Notes under the pieces: generated by a model | Database searches by the model: none | What the model was told of the DNA's origin: nothing | Seen by the model: the letters and a program-made list of their open reading frames with translations, nothing else | Translations under genes and position numbers: made by a program | Origin: Candidatus Methanoperedens sp. BLZ2 | GTDB lineage: Archaea > Halobacteriota > Methanosarcinia > Methanosarcinales > Methanoperedenaceae | DNA length: 33,063 nucleotides | Direction: 5' to 3' | Assembly (NCBI RefSeq): GCF_002487355.1 | Contig: NZ_NTMG01000049.1 | Location: 1 to 33,063 of the forward strand | Shown here: in pieces, positions 21,073-27,863 of the stretch | How the letters are laid out: every line of letters starts with the position of its first letter | Numbering within the stretch: the first letter of the stretch is position 1

Positions 21073-21084
21073 TATATTTAAATA
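21073..21084 (+). promoter_or_regulatory. TATA box of the PPC-propeller-ABC operon leader
   Basis: TATATTTAAATA, preceded by a purine-rich AAAAAAAAGCG stretch that could be a BRE. Transcription would start some 25 bases downstream near 21105, at the base of the first leader hairpin, giving a 5' leader of about 235 bases. Confidence 0.6.
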
Positions 21085-21104
21085 CAATGCATGGAAATAA
21101 GATT

Positions 21105-21341
21105 GGTGTACAGATGAATAAATCCTGTACAAAAAAATGGGTCAGTAAAGTTGGCAGGTTGGGGAGATAAAACTCCAAAAATGGATTTTACTGACTATAA
21201 AAAAAACATGGGGTTCAACTGAACCATCCAAAGTGCGGTTGAATCCCAATGGCCCGTAGGCAAATAAGGTTAGGACTTTCAAAGTATTAAAGACTTGCCT
21301 GGTTTTGCCTCCGGAGTAAATGAAAAAGGAGGTGAAAAAGA
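21105..21341 (+). ncRNA. structured 5' leader, candidate translational riboswitch
   Basis: The leader holds a series of near-perfect stems. These are GTACAG/CTGTAC (21108-21113 with 21125-21130), GTCAGTAAA/TTTACTGAC (21141-21149 with 21187-21195, enclosing GGAG/CTCC) and GGGGTTCAAC/GTTGAATCCC (21210-21219 with 21238-21247, one G-U). The 46-base core (21242-21287) is repeated at 27818. In it, AGGCAA (21258-21263) can pair with either of two TTGCCT copies (21295-21300 or 21305-21310). The second copy overlaps CCTCC (21308-21312), which could mask the Shine-Dalgarno GGAGGT (21328-21333). This gives mutually exclusive folds, as in a translational switch. It matches no riboswitch class I know. All pairing was found by eye. 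Confidence 0.55.
21242..21287 (+). repeat. 46-nt conserved element, copy 1
   Basis: Identical at 44 of 46 positions to 27818-27863. It starts AATCCCAATGG and ends ACTTTCAAAGTAT. The flanks on either side are not obviously alike, so this core is what has been kept. Confidence 0.9.
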
Positions 21342-21752
21342 ATGAAAATAAGCAAGATAATAGGCGTTTCGGCTATGACACTGCTGCTTGCGACATTAAT
21401 GGTAAGTGTAGCTTCAGCCGCAGGAGGGTCTTCGTATTCGACTGCAGAGCTTATAAATGTACCCGATAATGATATAACCTATTTTGGACTATATTCGAGT
21501 CATACCGAGGACTGGTGGAAATTCAATGCTAATCCCTATGATATAATATATATCGATTTGGATTACACATTCTCTCAGAACGGAGGCAAGGAATATCTCC
21601 ACGACCCATACGAGAATGTCATCAAAGCAGCGGTATGCTCTTCTGGATGTCAGATCGACCATACTGGACAGGTGACTGGGAGCCAACCACGTATTGAAAT
21701 AAATCGTGGTACTTCCTCAACTTACGACCACGTTGTCGGCCGAAATTGGTAA
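21342..21752 (+). CDS. small secreted protein with PPC-like domain
   Basis: A 136-residue exported protein. Residues 1-26 are a signal peptide ending ASA-A. The mature part SSYSTAELI...DWWKFNANPYDIIYIDLDY resembles the bacterial pre-peptidase C-terminal (PPC) beta-sandwich, which is usually a stalk or binding module. It lacks the expected final strands and stops after VVGRNW, so it may be a truncated or minimal member. GGAGGT at 21328-21333, eight bases before the ATG, gives a strong ribosome site. It is the first gene after the long structured leader and is separated from the propeller gene by an 83-base gap with a hairpin, so it may be made in excess over the downstream operon. Confidence 0.7.
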   Translation: MKISKIIGVSAMTLLLATLMVSVASAAGGSSYSTAELINVPDNDITYFGLYSSHTEDWWKFNANPYDIIYIDLDYTFSQNGGKEYLHDPYENVIKAAVCSSGCQIDHTGQVTGSQPRIEINRGTSSTYDHVVGRNW

Positions 21753-21835: not shown

Positions 21836-23413
21836 ATGAACATCCAAAATAAAAAATTAATAATAGTATTTATTGTGATTTATTTTACATCTTATCAGGC
21901 AGCAGCAGAAGAATCCAGGCTGCCGATTATACTGGAGACAAATGTATACTCATTAATAAACAAAGATATCCTGAGCCATGTGGATATGAATCGTCTCGAT
22001 ACTCACGGTACTACAGACATGAGATTTTACTGGAGCCCGGATGAAAGAAAAGTACTCATCGAAGCATCTATAAGTGCTTATGCAAAAGGAGGGAAAGCAG
22101 CTTTAGGCGGAGTGAGTGCACTATATTTGGCGGATATCTCACAGATAAATTCTCCAAAGCTTCTTAGAAGGGGCGAGGACACCAATAGCATTGCTGATGA
22201 ATCAAGAAGCATGATTGATACCTTCCATTGGAGCCCTTCGGGCAAATATTTTTCTTTCGTAGAGCGAAGTGGGGGAACTTTCAGAAGAAAATTTGATGAA
22301 ACGTGGATTCTTTGGATAATCAATACAAGCACACTTGATGTGGTCTCCAAAAAAGATGTCTCTGATGCAACAATTGGTGAAGACTTTCATCGGGGTTATT
22401 CCTGGTCACCTGTTGAGGATAAAATTGCATACATCGGGTTTAATGAAAACAAATCGAAGGATATATTCGTCTTGGATGTTTCTGAAAATAGTTTCTATGA
22501 AACCGGAATTAAAGAGTATATAAAATCTTTTGAAAACACAGTTTTAACATGGTCACCGGATGGCAGGAAGCTTGCATTGGCAGAACAGACATATAACGCA
22601 GGAAATTATAGTTTATTAATTATAGACCCTGCAAGCAGGAAAATTACGAATCTTCTTTCAGCCGCAACAATAATAGCACCCAGGTACGCGTTTTGGAGCC
22701 CTGATAGCAGAAACATCCTTGTAACGGAAATGAAGCCAGATGATAAAATCGATGTTTATCTGGTAAATATGGAAAATGGAGAACACAGGATACTAACGAC
22801 CTTAAATAACTTAGCAAGTTATGTAATAAAATGGAGCATGGATGGTAAGAAAATCTTATTTAAAACATCTAAAGGAGATATTAATCAGTTCTATTCGATG
22901 GATATAGATGGTAGCAGTTCCCCGGTTCTAATTTTTGAGAATAGTATATCTTCTGAATCGGCGGATGTTTCTGGAAATTTCACTATATTGACATTTAGTA
23001 GCGATTTATATAATTTAAATAATTTAGTTGTTCTGGAAAATGAGAACAAGCCATTAGTTATAAATAATGTGAGTTATTATTATTTTAATTATAAATTAGA
23101 TAGCTTATTATACGTGAGTCAAAACAACGGTCAAAATGCACTTTTCAGACTTAGCCCGGGAGCAGGTAGTAAGCAGCTCTCCATCTTACCGGATGTTAAA
23201 ATATTCAGCTTTAGTCCAAGTGGCAATTTTATAATTGTGGATAATGGTTCAGAATCATTTGAAAAAGAAAATAGTAACGGGACCAATTTTACAACTCAAA
23301 AGGTTGATAATTCAAAAGGTACAGCATCCAAAGCCCCCGGACTTGCTTTTATATTTGCCGGAACTTCAGTATTTGTTGTATACTATATTATAAAAATGAA
23401 GAGGTATTTATGA
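21836..23413 (+). CDS. secreted seven-bladed TolB/WD40-like propeller, membrane-anchored
   Basis: A 525-residue exported protein with a signal peptide (about 1-24, QAAAEE). Seven repeats of the form W-S-P-x-x-(K/R) are seen: W66, W132, W190, W239, W287, W333 and F459. This is the pattern of a seven-bladed TolB-type beta-propeller. Near the end, a Ser/Thr/Asn-rich linker leads to APGLAF, a hydrophobic helix and KMKRY, a C-terminal anchor that loosely resembles PGF-CTERM signals (PGL in place of PGF). It probably sits outside the membrane and binds a ligand or surface polymer for the ABC system. It overlaps the first permease by four bases (ATGA), so it belongs to that operon. TolB-like propellers are common as binding modules, so the ligand is unknown. 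Confidence 0.8.
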   Translation: MNIQNKKLIIVFIVIYFTSYQAAAEESRLPIILETNVYSLINKDILSHVDMNRLDTHGTTDMRFYWSPDERKVLIEASISAYAKGGKAALGGVSALYLADISQINSPKLLRRGEDTNSIADESRSMIDTFHWSPSGKYFSFVERSGGTFRRKFDETWILWIINTSTLDVVSKKDVSDATIGEDFHRGYSWSPVEDKIAYIGFNENKSKDIFVLDVSENSFYETGIKEYIKSFENTVLTWSPDGRKLALAEQTYNAGNYSLLIIDPASRKITNLLSAATIIAPRYAFWSPDSRNILVTEMKPDDKIDVYLVNMENGEHRILTTLNNLASYVIKWSMDGKKILFKTSKGDINQFYSMDIDGSSSPVLIFENSISSESADVSGNFTILTFSSDLYNLNNLVVLENENKPLVINNVSYYYFNYKLDSLLYVSQNNGQNALFRLSPGAGSKQLSILPDVKIFSFSPSGNFIIVDNGSESFEKENSNGTNFTTQKVDNSKGTASKAPGLAFIFAGTSVFVVYYIIKMKRYL

Positions 23414-24312
23414 AACAAAATGTTAGAAATGTGCTTGTAATCGCTCAAAAAGAATTCACTGACCATTTATGGAGTCCGAGATTTGTAACATTACTTTCGG
23501 TATTCTTACTAATAATATTCTCATTTAGCTATAAAGCTGCTTCAGCCGGGCTAAACATATTCAAAATGGGTTTTCTCGATGTCTCCCAGATAATTGCTGT
23601 TTTTCTGCCTTTTTTAGGAATGGCACTAGGATTTGACTCAGTAGTCAAAGAAAGTAAATCAAGTTCGTTGAATGTTCTTTTAAGCCATCCGGTTTTCAGA
23701 GATAACATAATTACTGGAAAAATACTGGGATCTCTGGCAACATTATCACTTGTTATCGGAATATCTATTATTGCCTCTATAGGAACTATGCTCATCATCT
23801 CCGGCGTGCAAATAAACCTCCTTGAGATTGAACGAATATTAATTTTTGCCATTTTAACATTTATTTACATTTCCACATTTGTGGGCATTAGTATTCTATT
23901 ATCAATATATTCAAAAAATACAGCCAGTTCATTAATATATTCGGTCGTTATCTGGATCAATTCAATAATAGTATTTAGTGCAATCGTTGCAGTACTTGCT
24001 GCCATTATAACCGGGCAGTCATATCTGGATTTAGGAAAAAACCACCAGGTACTTGAACTCAATGCTAACCTTCAAACGTTCTCGCCAATCCATCATTATG
24101 CAGAGGCAGTTAGCGGTGTACCAAGTTTAAGTTTTGGTGGAGTCAGTTTGAATTCTGGTTCCGATAGAAGCTTGGGAATTTTTGATACAAGATATACGTT
24201 AGATCAATGGATGTATGAGTACTGGACAAATCTTGTAGTATTAATTACAGTACCAATAGTATTGTTTATTGCATCATTTGTGGCATTTTTACGAAGAGAT
24301 ATAACAATGTGA
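23410..24312 (+). CDS. ABC-2 type permease, copy 1
   Basis: A 300-residue membrane protein with about six hydrophobic segments, of the ABC-2/NosY-like kind. The cytoplasmic motif VVKESKSSSLNVLLSHPVF and DNIITGKILGS is characteristic. It overlaps the propeller gene by four bases and is followed after six bases by a sister permease with the same motif, so the two would form a heterodimeric channel with the ATPase at the end of the operon. Substrate and direction are unknown; ABC-2 permeases are usually exporters or mechanical devices. Confidence 0.87.
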   Translation: MKQNVRNVLVIAQKEFTDHLWSPRFVTLLSVFLLIIFSFSYKAASAGLNIFKMGFLDVSQIIAVFLPFLGMALGFDSVVKESKSSSLNVLLSHPVFRDNIITGKILGSLATLSLVIGISIIASIGTMLIISGVQINLLEIERILIFAILTFIYISTFVGISILLSIYSKNTASSLIYSVVIWINSIIVFSAIVAVLAAIITGQSYLDLGKNHQVLELNANLQTFSPIHHYAEAVSGVPSLSFGGVSLNSGSDRSLGIFDTRYTLDQWMYEYWTNLVVLITVPIVLFIASFVAFLRRDITM

Positions 24313-24318
24313 GGTACT

Positions 24319-25230
24319 ATGAAGAAAAGTCTCAATAATTCAATTACGATTGCTCAGAAAGAATTTGCAGATAACATATGGAGTCCTGTTTTTTTGCTAT
24401 TACTTATAACCTTCACTTTGATTGTTTTTACCTACAGTTATCAGAACGGATTAAAAGTAGAACGCGTCGGATTGCAGGATGGAACCTCTCTTTTACTAAA
24501 TGGGTTTGCTGGTCTTGCAAAAATTATGGGATTTTTTGCTCCCTTGATCGGCTTTGCTTTAGGTTTTGACGCAGTCGTAAAAGAGAAAAAATCCGGGTCA
24601 TTAAACGTACTTTTAACCCATCCGGTATTCAGGGATAATATTATTAGTGGGAAAATTCTGGGTTCATTCTTGACATTAGCTCTTGTTATCGTAATTTCAA
24701 CATTAATTTCGATTGGCACTTTGCTTTTGATCATAGGGGGCACTTTGAATGGATTTGAACTTGGAAGGATAGCAGTATTTTCAATAATAACTTTTTTTTA
24801 CAGTATTATTTTTATGGGGATCGGAGTTATCCTTTCTATCGTAGTAAAGGATGCTGCAGACTCACTTGTTTACAACGTTGTTGTTTGGTTTGTCCTCTGT
24901 ATTCTATTTGGTGCTATTGTTATCGCAATAGCAACTATTATTACAGGTCAGCCATTTGGCATTGGTACCAGCTCTTTTGAACTTGCTTTGAACATGGCAA
25001 ATATATCGCCGCTTCATCATTATGCAGAAGCAACTGTGGGCAGGGTTGATCTTAGCTGGGGCGGTATTGGCTTCGCCGATGCTTCAATAAAAGGGATATT
25101 TGACACCCGTTTTACCCTCTTCCAGTGGTTTGGCGAGTTCTGGATGAATTTAACCGTACTAATAGTAACTCCGATCATCCTTCTAATCATTGCTTTCATA
25201 GCATTTCTCAGGAAGGACATAAGTACATGA
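24319..25230 (+). CDS. ABC-2 type permease, copy 2
   Basis: A 303-residue paralogue of the preceding permease. It shares the blocks SLNVLLTHPVFRDNI and SGKILGS, the HHYAEA segment and the C-terminal helix ending AFLRKDI. The pair arose by tandem duplication. A GAGGT lies five bases before the ATG. It overlaps the NEW3 protein gene by four bases (ATGA at 25227-25230), a sign of tight translational coupling. The extracytoplasmic loop before the last helix is distinct from copy 1. Confidence 0.87.
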   Translation: MKKSLNNSITIAQKEFADNIWSPVFLLLLITFTLIVFTYSYQNGLKVERVGLQDGTSLLLNGFAGLAKIMGFFAPLIGFALGFDAVVKEKKSGSLNVLLTHPVFRDNIISGKILGSFLTLALVIVISTLISIGTLLLIIGGTLNGFELGRIAVFSIITFFYSIIFMGIGVILSIVVKDAADSLVYNVVVWFVLCILFGAIVIAIATIITGQPFGIGTSSFELALNMANISPLHHYAEATVGRVDLSWGGIGFADASIKGIFDTRFTLFQWFGEFWMNLTVLIVTPIILLIIAFIAFLRKDIST

Positions 25231-26798
25231 ATAAAACCTTAAGAATTCTCGGAATCATATCAATCATCATCTTACTCCTGATACCATTAGCCGCAGCAGA
25301 ATTCTCTCAGATATCTGCTACATCGGACATAACCGGCAAAGTCGTTCGCCCGGGCGACACAGTTGAATTCACCACAACCCTGCAGAAATTCTACAACACC
25401 ACAAAAAGCGTCTCAGTCAAGCTATTCATCGACAAAAAACCAGACAACTGGCTCGCCGGCTTCTATGCAGAAAACAACCAGGTAAGCCAGATAACCTTCC
25501 CTGCCGACTCAACCGAGTCAAAGCAGGTTGTCGTAAGAGTGAGGGTGCCAGCCAACACCAGCGATGGCTCCTACCTGGTAAGGATAGGGTTGCAGCCTTT
25601 TGGCGAGGATGTTACCAATTATGAATTGATATACCGCGATTTTGCTGCGATCGTGGACAGGAACGCCATGCCTAACCTTGACATATACTCAGGCATACCC
25701 GGAAGAAAAACCCATCCTGGCATTCCAGTCAGGTTCAGCATCACTGTAGAAAATAAATACGACAGCAGGGCGACAGTAAAGCTCTCGGTACTTTCAAAGC
25801 CAGGTGAATGGGGCGTGGACCTGCTCTCTTCAGACGGCGCAAGGATCACAAAAATGAGTATTCCTGCAAAAGGTAAGCAGGATTTTGATGTTGTCGCCCA
25901 GCCTCCTGTTAATTCAACCGACGGGGATTATGAGGTGCTGGTAGGCGCTTCTATGGAAAGCGGCAGCCAGTTCATCTCACTGCCGCTAAGTGTCACCATT
26001 AATCCTGAGCTTGATCCAACCCAGGCATTGAGTGCATATCTTGAAATGCGCTCAGCTATAGCAGGGCTTGAAGTCCGGCCTGAAAATACAGCAGAGTTTG
26101 CCGTATCCCTGAACAACAGATATGACCAGCAGCTCAAGCTGAACCTGAAAGCACTGGATAAGCCGCAAGGCTGGAATGTGGAGTTTCTTTCAGATACGGA
26201 TGATAATGTGAGGCTTACCACGCTTGAACTGCCTGCAAAAGGCGAGCAAAATTTCATAGTGAAAATCAAACCTTCCCTGAACGCAAGCGATGGCATATAT
26301 CCTGTACTCGTGGGTGCTGTCAGCGGGGATGACAGGAGCGTGTCCCGGAGACTTGAAGTTACCGTCAATAAAGGTCTTGAGAACAGCCAGATACTCGGCC
26401 TTTATCCGGGATACAGCGAAGTGACGCTCAATCCTGGCAGTTCGACAGATATCAGTGTAACACTGAGGAACGGCGGGGATGAGGCATTAAGCGACGTTCA
26501 GCTTGAGATACAGGAAGTAAGCGGCATCAGTACCCAGATACGAAGCTTCGGGACAATAGAAAAACTGGAGGCCGGCGAATCAAGGAATATTCCTGTTGAG
26601 ATTACAGCACGGGCAGACGCAGGCTCAGGGATAAAAGAAATATTCATGCGTGCAAAGAGCGGCGATATCCAGGGTGAGGAAAAGACCATCAAAGTGAATG
26701 TTGAAAAATCAGGATCAAGCGGAATAGCAGGGATCGGGATGGTAGTGCTTGCTATTGTTGCGCTTGTGTTTATAATTCGCAAGTTCGGGAGAAGATGA
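25227..26798 (+). CDS. secreted NEW3-repeat protein (COG1470-like), membrane-anchored
   Basis: A 523-residue exported protein. It has a signal peptide (MNKTLRILG, hydrophobic core, PLAAAE near 24) and at least three or four repeats of an Ig-like NPCBM-associated NEW3 module. These are marked by recurring GxxVxPGxTVEF, 'KPxxW' (KPDNW, KPGEW, KPQGW) and 'DGxYxVxVG' motifs. The C-terminus has a single helix, then IRKFGRR, leaving the repeats outside the cell. I began it at the ATG that overlaps the previous stop, since that gives a clean signal peptide. COG1470-like proteins are often found beside ABC-2 permeases and an ATPase in archaea, and this operon fits that pattern. They may act as surface-bound adaptors. 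Confidence 0.83.
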   Translation: MNKTLRILGIISIIILLLIPLAAAEFSQISATSDITGKVVRPGDTVEFTTTLQKFYNTTKSVSVKLFIDKKPDNWLAGFYAENNQVSQITFPADSTESKQVVVRVRVPANTSDGSYLVRIGLQPFGEDVTNYELIYRDFAAIVDRNAMPNLDIYSGIPGRKTHPGIPVRFSITVENKYDSRATVKLSVLSKPGEWGVDLLSSDGARITKMSIPAKGKQDFDVVAQPPVNSTDGDYEVLVGASMESGSQFISLPLSVTINPELDPTQALSAYLEMRSAIAGLEVRPENTAEFAVSLNNRYDQQLKLNLKALDKPQGWNVEFLSDTDDNVRLTTLELPAKGEQNFIVKIKPSLNASDGIYPVLVGAVSGDDRSVSRRLEVTVNKGLENSQILGLYPGYSEVTLNPGSSTDISVTLRNGGDEALSDVQLEIQEVSGISTQIRSFGTIEKLEAGESRNIPVEITARADAGSGIKEIFMRAKSGDIQGEEKTIKVNVEKSGSSGIAGIGMVVLAIVALVFIIRKFGRR

Positions 26799-27766
26799 AC
26801 ATGAATGAAATCAGTCAAAATGAAAATATTATTGAAACCATAAATCTTACCAAGCGTTTTGGTAAGAAAAACGAGCTTGTAGCAGTGGATTCGCTAAACC
26901 TTGGCGTTAGAAAGGGCGAAGTATTTGGTTTTGTTGGGCCAAACGGTGCAGGAAAGACCACTACGATGAAGATGCTGATCGGTTTGCTTGAGCCCACGGA
27001 CGGTTCTGGTAGGGTAGCAGGTTTTGATATTGTAAGAGAGGTAATAAAAATAAGGGAAGCAACAGGTGTTTTGCCTGAACCTGCCGGATTTTATGATAAT
27101 CTCACGGCAAGACAGAACCTCAGGTTCTATGCAAAGCTCTACGATATCGATGAAAAGACACGAGAGAAGCGGATCGTCGATTTACTTGAGCTTGTGGGTC
27201 TTGGTCGTGCCATAGACCAGAAGACAGGTGGATTTTCAACAGGTATGAGGAAGCGTTTCGGTCTTGCCCAGGCATTGATAAATGAGCCAGGTGTCCTGTT
27301 CCTGGATGAACCCACAAGCGGCATCGATCCTCTTGGCGCACAGATGATGCGGGATTTGATCAAAAAACTGAGTAAAGAGAAGGGTGTGACCGTGTTCCTG
27401 AGCAGCCACAGCATGGCAGAGGTTGAGGAAATATGTGACAGGATCGGGGTGATTGCGCGCGGTAAGCTGCTTGCCGTAGGTACGGTGGAGGAACTCAGGG
27501 ATAGGGTGAGGGAAAAAGTAGGTGTAAGGTTTACACTTGAAGTCCAGGATTTGCCTGTGCAGAGGGTCTTAGAGGGATTGAAAGGAGTTAATGGTGTGCG
27601 TTCTGTTGAGCCGGTTAACGGTCATATCTCGCTGCTGACAGATGTGGGAACGCGCATGGAGATAGCTGTAGCTGTGAAGTCCATGGGCGGAACCATATCC
27701 CGATTCGAGGAGGAGAGAATGGATTTGCAGCGTGTGTTCCTGAAGCTGATAGAAGAAGCGGCATGA
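26795..27766 (+). CDS. ABC transporter ATP-binding protein
   Basis: A 323-residue ABC ATPase. Walker A is GPNGAGKTT (48-56), the signature is FSTGMRKRFGLAQAL, Walker B is VLFLDEPTSGIDPLG and the switch is LSSHSMAE. The extra C-terminal ~90 residues are of the kind seen in NodI/DrrA/NosF-type exporters. It overlaps the NEW3 gene by four bases and closes the operon. With the two permeases it should form one transporter; the propeller and NEW3 proteins are its likely surface partners (inference from context). Confidence 0.93.
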   Translation: MNMNEISQNENIIETINLTKRFGKKNELVAVDSLNLGVRKGEVFGFVGPNGAGKTTTMKMLIGLLEPTDGSGRVAGFDIVREVIKIREATGVLPEPAGFYDNLTARQNLRFYAKLYDIDEKTREKRIVDLLELVGLGRAIDQKTGGFSTGMRKRFGLAQALINEPGVLFLDEPTSGIDPLGAQMMRDLIKKLSKEKGVTVFLSSHSMAEVEEICDRIGVIARGKLLAVGTVEELRDRVREKVGVRFTLEVQDLPVQRVLEGLKGVNGVRSVEPVNGHISLLTDVGTRMEIAVAVKSMGGTISRFEEERMDLQRVFLKLIEEAA

Positions 27767-27817: not shown

Positions 27818-27863
27818 AATCCCAATGGCCTGTAGGCAGATAAGGTTAGGACTTTCAAAGTAT
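27818..27863 (+). repeat. 46-nt conserved element, copy 2
   Basis: Differs from copy 1 (21242-21287) at two positions: T for C before GTAGGC, and G for A in the A-rich part. It lies 51 bases after the stop of the ABC ATPase. Upstream there is only a weak echo of the first leader (GGTTCA..C..AAAG), and the first hairpins are not kept. Confidence 0.9.

Follow-up and report, generated by a model that had tools for sequence, protein, structure and literature searches.

Natural riboswitch-like RNAs described in archaea are few. A familiar kind of large RNA regulon is that of the c-di-GMP-I (GEMM) riboswitches (RF01051), which recur many times within a genome, ahead of genes for surface and secreted proteins. 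Translational riboswitches with an anti-Shine–Dalgarno (anti-SD) platform sit in 5′ untranslated regions (5′ UTRs) and combine a conserved structured domain with a shared strand, which can close an upstream helix or else mask the Shine–Dalgarno (SD) sequence. Structured RNAs reported in archaea include the flpD motif (RF01737), found in Euryarchaeota, and the crcB/fluoride motif (RF01734) (PMC2864571). In the methanogen Methanolobus psychrophilus, long 5′ UTRs and predicted stem-loops that mask the ribosome-binding site (RBS) have been linked to the cold response (PMC5378194).

Here, we describe a leader RNA that shares features with all of these systems. It lies in a 33,063-nt stretch of the genome of Candidatus Methanoperedens sp. 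BLZ2 (contig NZ_NTMG01000049.1; hereafter the window). The 237-nt leader consists of two modules on the forward strand: module A (21105–21209) and element B (21210–21341). Element B resembles the translational riboswitches in its 5′-UTR position, its conserved structured domain and its shared strand, but its sequence and structure fit no Rfam family and it is known here from sequence comparison. At the level of the regulon it recalls the c-di-GMP-I riboswitches, from which it differs in structure, core, archaeal spread and the lack of an Rfam match. Like flpD and crcB/fluoride it is a candidate cis-regulatory RNA in archaea; neither of these models matches it, however, and its targets are secreted proteins. 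With the M. psychrophilus leaders it shares an RBS-masking structure in the 5′ UTR of a related methanogen, whereas those stem-loops, in the passages that describe them, concern alternative transcription starts (Hsp20 genes) and no conserved RNA family, and these passages hold no mention of element B that we could find (PMC5378194).

At the gathering score, none of the 4227 families of Rfam 15 (TPP, c-di-GMP, SAM, fluoride, guanidine, cobalamin and flpD included) matched the window, nothing riboswitch-like appeared there at E ≤ 10, and the element in Methanosarcina and Methanoculleus-type loci had no Rfam match either. This bears out the preliminary description of the leader, made from the sequence of the window alone, which had found it unlike any familiar class. 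No description of element B was found in the open-licence literature, mostly at the level of titles and the opening lines of abstracts. A translational switch is a known general kind of regulator; the element B family appears to be new. We propose that element B probably acts in cis, in the manner of a riboswitch, as a two-state regulator of translation for an archaeal regulon of secreted proteins, with a small molecule or second messenger as its most likely signal.

Architecture of the leader

In the window, a TATA-like promoter element (TTTAAATA, 21077–21084), read from the sequence, lies upstream of module A, and transcription is predicted to start near 21100–21110. Element B opens with the P1 hairpin (21210–21247), which forms its 5′ edge and has 10–12 bp and a variable loop. 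It is followed by P2, in which CCCGnAGGCA pairs with TGCCTnCGG at a distance of about 50 nt, enclosing a GTTnG motif and the P3 hairpin. The 5′ strand of P2 (GGCCCGTAGGCAA.., 21252–21264) contains AGGCAA (21258–21263) and can alternatively fold into a local GCC-CGTA-GGC hairpin. The enclosed core spans 21269–21292, with P3 formed by CTTT (21276–21279) and AAAG (21289–21292). A first TTGCCT (21295–21300) precedes the 3′ strand of P2 (TTTGCCTCCGGAGT, 21304–21317), which carries a second TTGCCT (21305–21310) and CCTCC (21308–21312) and doubles as the anti-SD strand: it is common to P2 and to a further helix, P4, formed with the SD region (GGAGGTGAA, 21328–21336, including GGAGGT at 21328–21333), whose partner in a constrained fold is 21304–21312. 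The preliminary description had built its proposal on AGGCAA, the two TTGCCT copies, CCTCC and GGAGGT, all of which we find where it placed them. The stems it reported are also real, as both modules fold more stably than shuffled sequences: module A has z = −6.2 (0/200 shuffles equally stable) and element B z = −3.2 (3/200).

The ATG at 21342 starts a predicted 136-aa secreted protein (21342–21752) with the signal peptide MKISKIIGVSAMTLLLATLMVSVASA. The rest of the putative operon (21836–27766) encodes, according to Pfam, a beta-propeller protein, two ABC-2 permeases, a NEW3-domain surface protein and an ABC ATPase.

Distribution and copy number

BLAST of the leader (21105–21341) against its own genome gave nine matches at E ≤ 1, the first five of which are clear homologues, and 33 of 60 relatives matched at E ≤ 0.1. 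Strong matches to query positions 1–113 (module A) are confined to the genus Methanoperedens; those to positions ~106–237 (element B) spread wider. A covariance model (R1) was built from 19 copies of element B that were aligned with MAFFT and then folded. It matched 86/150 genomes of the order (16/24 genera), 101/238 genomes of the class (all, among the matches listed, inside the order) and 38/247 genomes of the phylum. The last set reaches into several families beyond the class, in which the same parts of the element can be recognised by eye. A refined model (R2), built from 76 copies, matched 91/393 phylum genomes in 26/136 genera, among them Methanoperedens, Methanosarcina, Methanolobus, Methanohalophilus and Methanoculleus; the majority of phylum genomes, which have no match, serve as a useful negative control. 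The homologues that the preliminary description had proposed to seek with a covariance model are thus plentiful. They are also numerous within single genomes: at E ≤ 0.001, R2 finds 10 copies in the genome of the window, and four other genomes of the order, all from one family (f5), carry 16, 17, 25 and 28. The RNA family is phylum-wide, multi-copy, absent from Rfam 15 and present in the genetically tractable Methanosarcina.

One Methanosarcina region (G106:C1:2844584-2875854; L108, L109) has a copy every 3–6 kb ahead of genes for secreted proteins. Several of these genes are related, and the region is a cluster of locally duplicated leader–gene units. A strict pattern of the element gave no match in viral contigs; two pattern matches (L159, L162) on short contigs labelled as WOR-3 and Cloacimonadota metagenome-assembled genomes probably mark mis-binned archaeal contigs.

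The preliminary description had also counted a second copy in the window, at 27818. Its similarity is limited to the middle 46 nt, running from the 3′ half of P1 to the 5′ half of P3 (27818–27863); it folds no better than shuffles (z = +0.45), and the covariance model does not recover it from the window at E ≤ 0.001. On these grounds we reject it as an independent functional homologue and regard it as a truncated, probably non-functional remnant. It has a positional counterpart in one relative (G021:C2).

Covariation and conservation

An alignment of 76 copies, made with MAFFT without using the structure in the fitting, was used to assess covariation. In total, 89% of its cells pair, and changes on both sides of a pair occur in 130 cells, versus 45 ± 5 in shuffles; sliding the partners by one column lowers pairing to 51–54%. 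In P1, such double changes are seen at all ten tested pairs. A tree-aware null re-placed each column's substitutions on a tree in 1000 replicates. For all helices together, and likewise for P1, neither the pairing nor the double changes were reached in any replicate (0/1000 each). P2 was matched in 1/1000 replicates for pairing and 21/1000 for double changes, and P3 in 8/1000 and 114/1000, respectively. Within Methanoperedens alone, covariation in P2 is absent. A scan of all column pairs against a tree null, which has low power, returned no pair at E < 0.05; its top three pairs all lie in P1. The compensatory changes that the preliminary description had asked of any homologues are thus present, and element B has the covariation-supported secondary structure expected of a riboswitch. 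Columns of the core (21269–21292) are mostly 80–97% conserved; the conservation of its unpaired part is below that of many riboswitch aptamers.

The position of the element is also regular. The start codon follows it by 14–37 nt in 82/86 copies and is ATG in 82/86. In a set of 139 distinct copies, TATA-like hexamers are most frequent between −35 and −28 relative to P1, and a second group lies between −54 and −48. With the main peak just before P1, transcription should in most copies start near P1. The positions of TATA, SD and ATG together predict a 5′-UTR location, as in riboswitches. A transcription start inside or downstream of 21242–21300 had been named as the finding that would speak against the proposal; the predicted start lies upstream of the element instead.

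Genes downstream of element B

What the genes behind element B have in common is export. By a crude hydropathy rule, 130 of the 133 distinct proteins encoded directly downstream (97.7%) carry a strong hydrophobic segment at the N terminus, compared with 42.9% of 317 control ORFs from the same loci, and the sequences look like classical signal peptides (MK..GIGALLAAMLLVSMAFVPAVSA). In further loci, a signal peptide is found in 23 of the 25 with an ORF. Most of the downstream proteins belong to no Pfam family. Peptidase domains are the commonest assignments (of 104: M12 reprolysin 9, C39 8, M10 6), and S8, C25 and C70 also occur. The surface/ABC operon from which the preliminary description took its context is therefore true of the window, but is one case of a far wider secreted-protein context. 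Element B would tie translation control to protein export; as one copy stands before each of many signal-peptide genes, a single signal could retune many secreted proteins together.

Two exclusive pairings at the ribosome-binding site

P4 pairs the 3′ strand of P2 with the downstream SD region, and the two strands co-vary. An SD will generally fit CCTCC, so the pairing of each anti-SD strand with its own SD was compared with that of swapped partners. Over 86 copies, the energy was −9.07 kcal/mol for own pairing versus −7.54 ± 0.17 kcal/mol for swapped. No swap was equally good in Methanosarcina (g19; 0/5000) or in the remaining mixed copies (0/5000); inside Methanoperedens alone, the signal is not significant (372/5000). 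A further 29 loci, none of them used to build the models, come from 10 genera, seven of which the models lack; here, 14/5000 swaps were equally good. Matching changes can also be read directly: CCTTTTG/CAAAAGG (L116), CCTCTTG/CAAGAGG (L110), CTCCTG/CAGGAG (L119, L122), CCTCCTA/TAGGAGG (L122) and GTGCCTCA/TGAGGCAC (L135).

As P2 and P4 draw on the same nucleotides, they are mutually exclusive. Element B thus has, with the limit that P4 is not significant within Methanoperedens, an expression platform in which SD masking excludes the sensor fold. At 37 °C, the two states of the window leader are nearly isoenergetic (P2 −41.4 versus P4 −41.1 kcal/mol), with P2 in the minimum free energy structure and P4 in the centroid. 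Across the family, P2 is the lower-energy predicted state in 68/83 copies (median difference −2.9 kcal/mol), so folding energy alone gives no balanced switch.

The preliminary description had proposed an either/or logic in which AGGCAA holds one or the other TTGCCT. Imposing the SD-masking hairpin when the window is folded reproduces the second state of this proposal, as AGGCAA pairs with the first TTGCCT and CCTCC with GGAGG. The proposed switch logic is largely borne out: the CCTCC strand is common to the upstream helix and the SD-masking hairpin. The first TTGCCT, in contrast, is rejected as a general competitor for AGGCAA, as it is conserved in part (TTGCYT in 29/76 copies); its pairing beats the best 5% of shuffles in 24/76. 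An alternative competitor is the local GCC/GGC pairing, which is almost invariant and therefore carries no covariation signal.

A subtype within Methanoperedens (L040:6985-7091, L039:1956-2062, L043:5386-5489, L044:2086-2188, L045:5779-5880) has GCGCCTGATGAGG or similar as its 3′ strand of P2, lacks an anti-SD and forms P4 at about −3 kcal/mol. These copies possibly have a different expression platform, or are unregulated.

Proposed mechanism and alternative explanations

In the mechanism that we favour, P2 would form when a signal occupies or stabilises the core; this would keep the CCTCC strand away, leaving the ribosome site free and translation on. Upon opening of P2, its 5′ strand would pair elsewhere (with the first TTGCCT or the local GCC), and P4 could close on the SD, switching translation off. 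P2 as the ON direction is our inference. The signal would most likely be one that all copies share, a small molecule or a second messenger. A bolder version, which we put forward tentatively and would not yet back over its alternatives, is that element B represents a riboswitch class specific to archaea and of ancient origin in the phylum, and that a single intracellular signal, perhaps a second messenger, acts through it to set the translation of a whole set of secreted peptidases and surface proteins. If true, it would be an archaeal counterpart of the bacterial multi-copy second-messenger riboswitch regulons. In either form, the switch raises the question of which signal lies behind the retuning of secreted proteins in methanogens and in anaerobic methane oxidisers.

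Among the other explanations, the rough order is a protein trigger first, then sensing of temperature or ions, then a constitutive leader. The same two-state leader could be operated by an RNA-binding protein, such as a secretion or envelope regulator or an autoregulating product, with no small molecule involved. The unpaired conserved core is small, and the targets share export and no metabolic pathway, which fits a regulator linked to the envelope or to secretion; we regard this as unlikely overall, if a serious contender. Temperature or salt could instead set the balance between P2 and P4 without a dedicated ligand, as the near-isoenergetic states of the window and the cold-linked, RBS-masking leaders of M. 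psychrophilus (PMC5378194) might suggest. RNA thermometers, however, conserve stability and little sequence outside their stems, whereas the GTTnG core and the P3 loop are conserved here, and the conservation of the GTTnG/P3 core and of AGGCA/TGCCT exceeds what a simple melting hairpin needs. The element also occurs in genera with different growth optima, and a thermometer or ion sensor seems to us quite improbable.

We give similarly little credence to a constitutive leader, whose structures would do no more than protect the 5′ end of the mRNA or determine how strongly secreted proteins are translated, without regulated switching. The location of P1 at the predicted transcript 5′ end and the subtype without an anti-SD strand would suit it, but two mutually exclusive, independently conserved pairings are hard to explain without a switch. 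Finally, a mobile or recombining cassette of leader plus signal peptide, or a genomic repeat without RNA function, would account for the multiple copies, the tandem clusters (as in the G106:C1 region) and the similarity of signal peptides that precede different mature proteins, but is very improbable given the pairing excess over the tree-aware null, the constant placement ahead of SD and ATG and the phylum-wide spread with sequence divergence. Duplication explains copy number and not structure.

Accessory modules and promoter motifs

The two-state regulator that we favour is accompanied by further elements in some loci. Module A comprises two additional hairpins (21107–21131 and 21140–21196) and, judged by its sequence matches and an alignment of 15 sequences, is a Methanoperedens add-on 5′ domain present in some copies. 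It lies mostly upstream of element B; two matches (L015:1339-1405, L027) have no element B behind them, and it may be a structured element in its own right.

Several loci (L145, L113, L099, L106, L136 and others) share a promoter motif, AGTTnGATGATnTGG, that lies ~53 or 75 bp before P1, just 5′ of the TATA box, and is sometimes half of an inverted repeat. Allowing three mismatches, it is present in 40/146 copies versus ~2.5% of random 160-bp stretches, which suggests that genes behind the element also share a transcription factor. In copies with a TATA near −50 (L049, L054, L106, L117, L119, L136), an optional additional hairpin, ACATCAAAAAGATGTT, lies between the predicted transcription start and P1.
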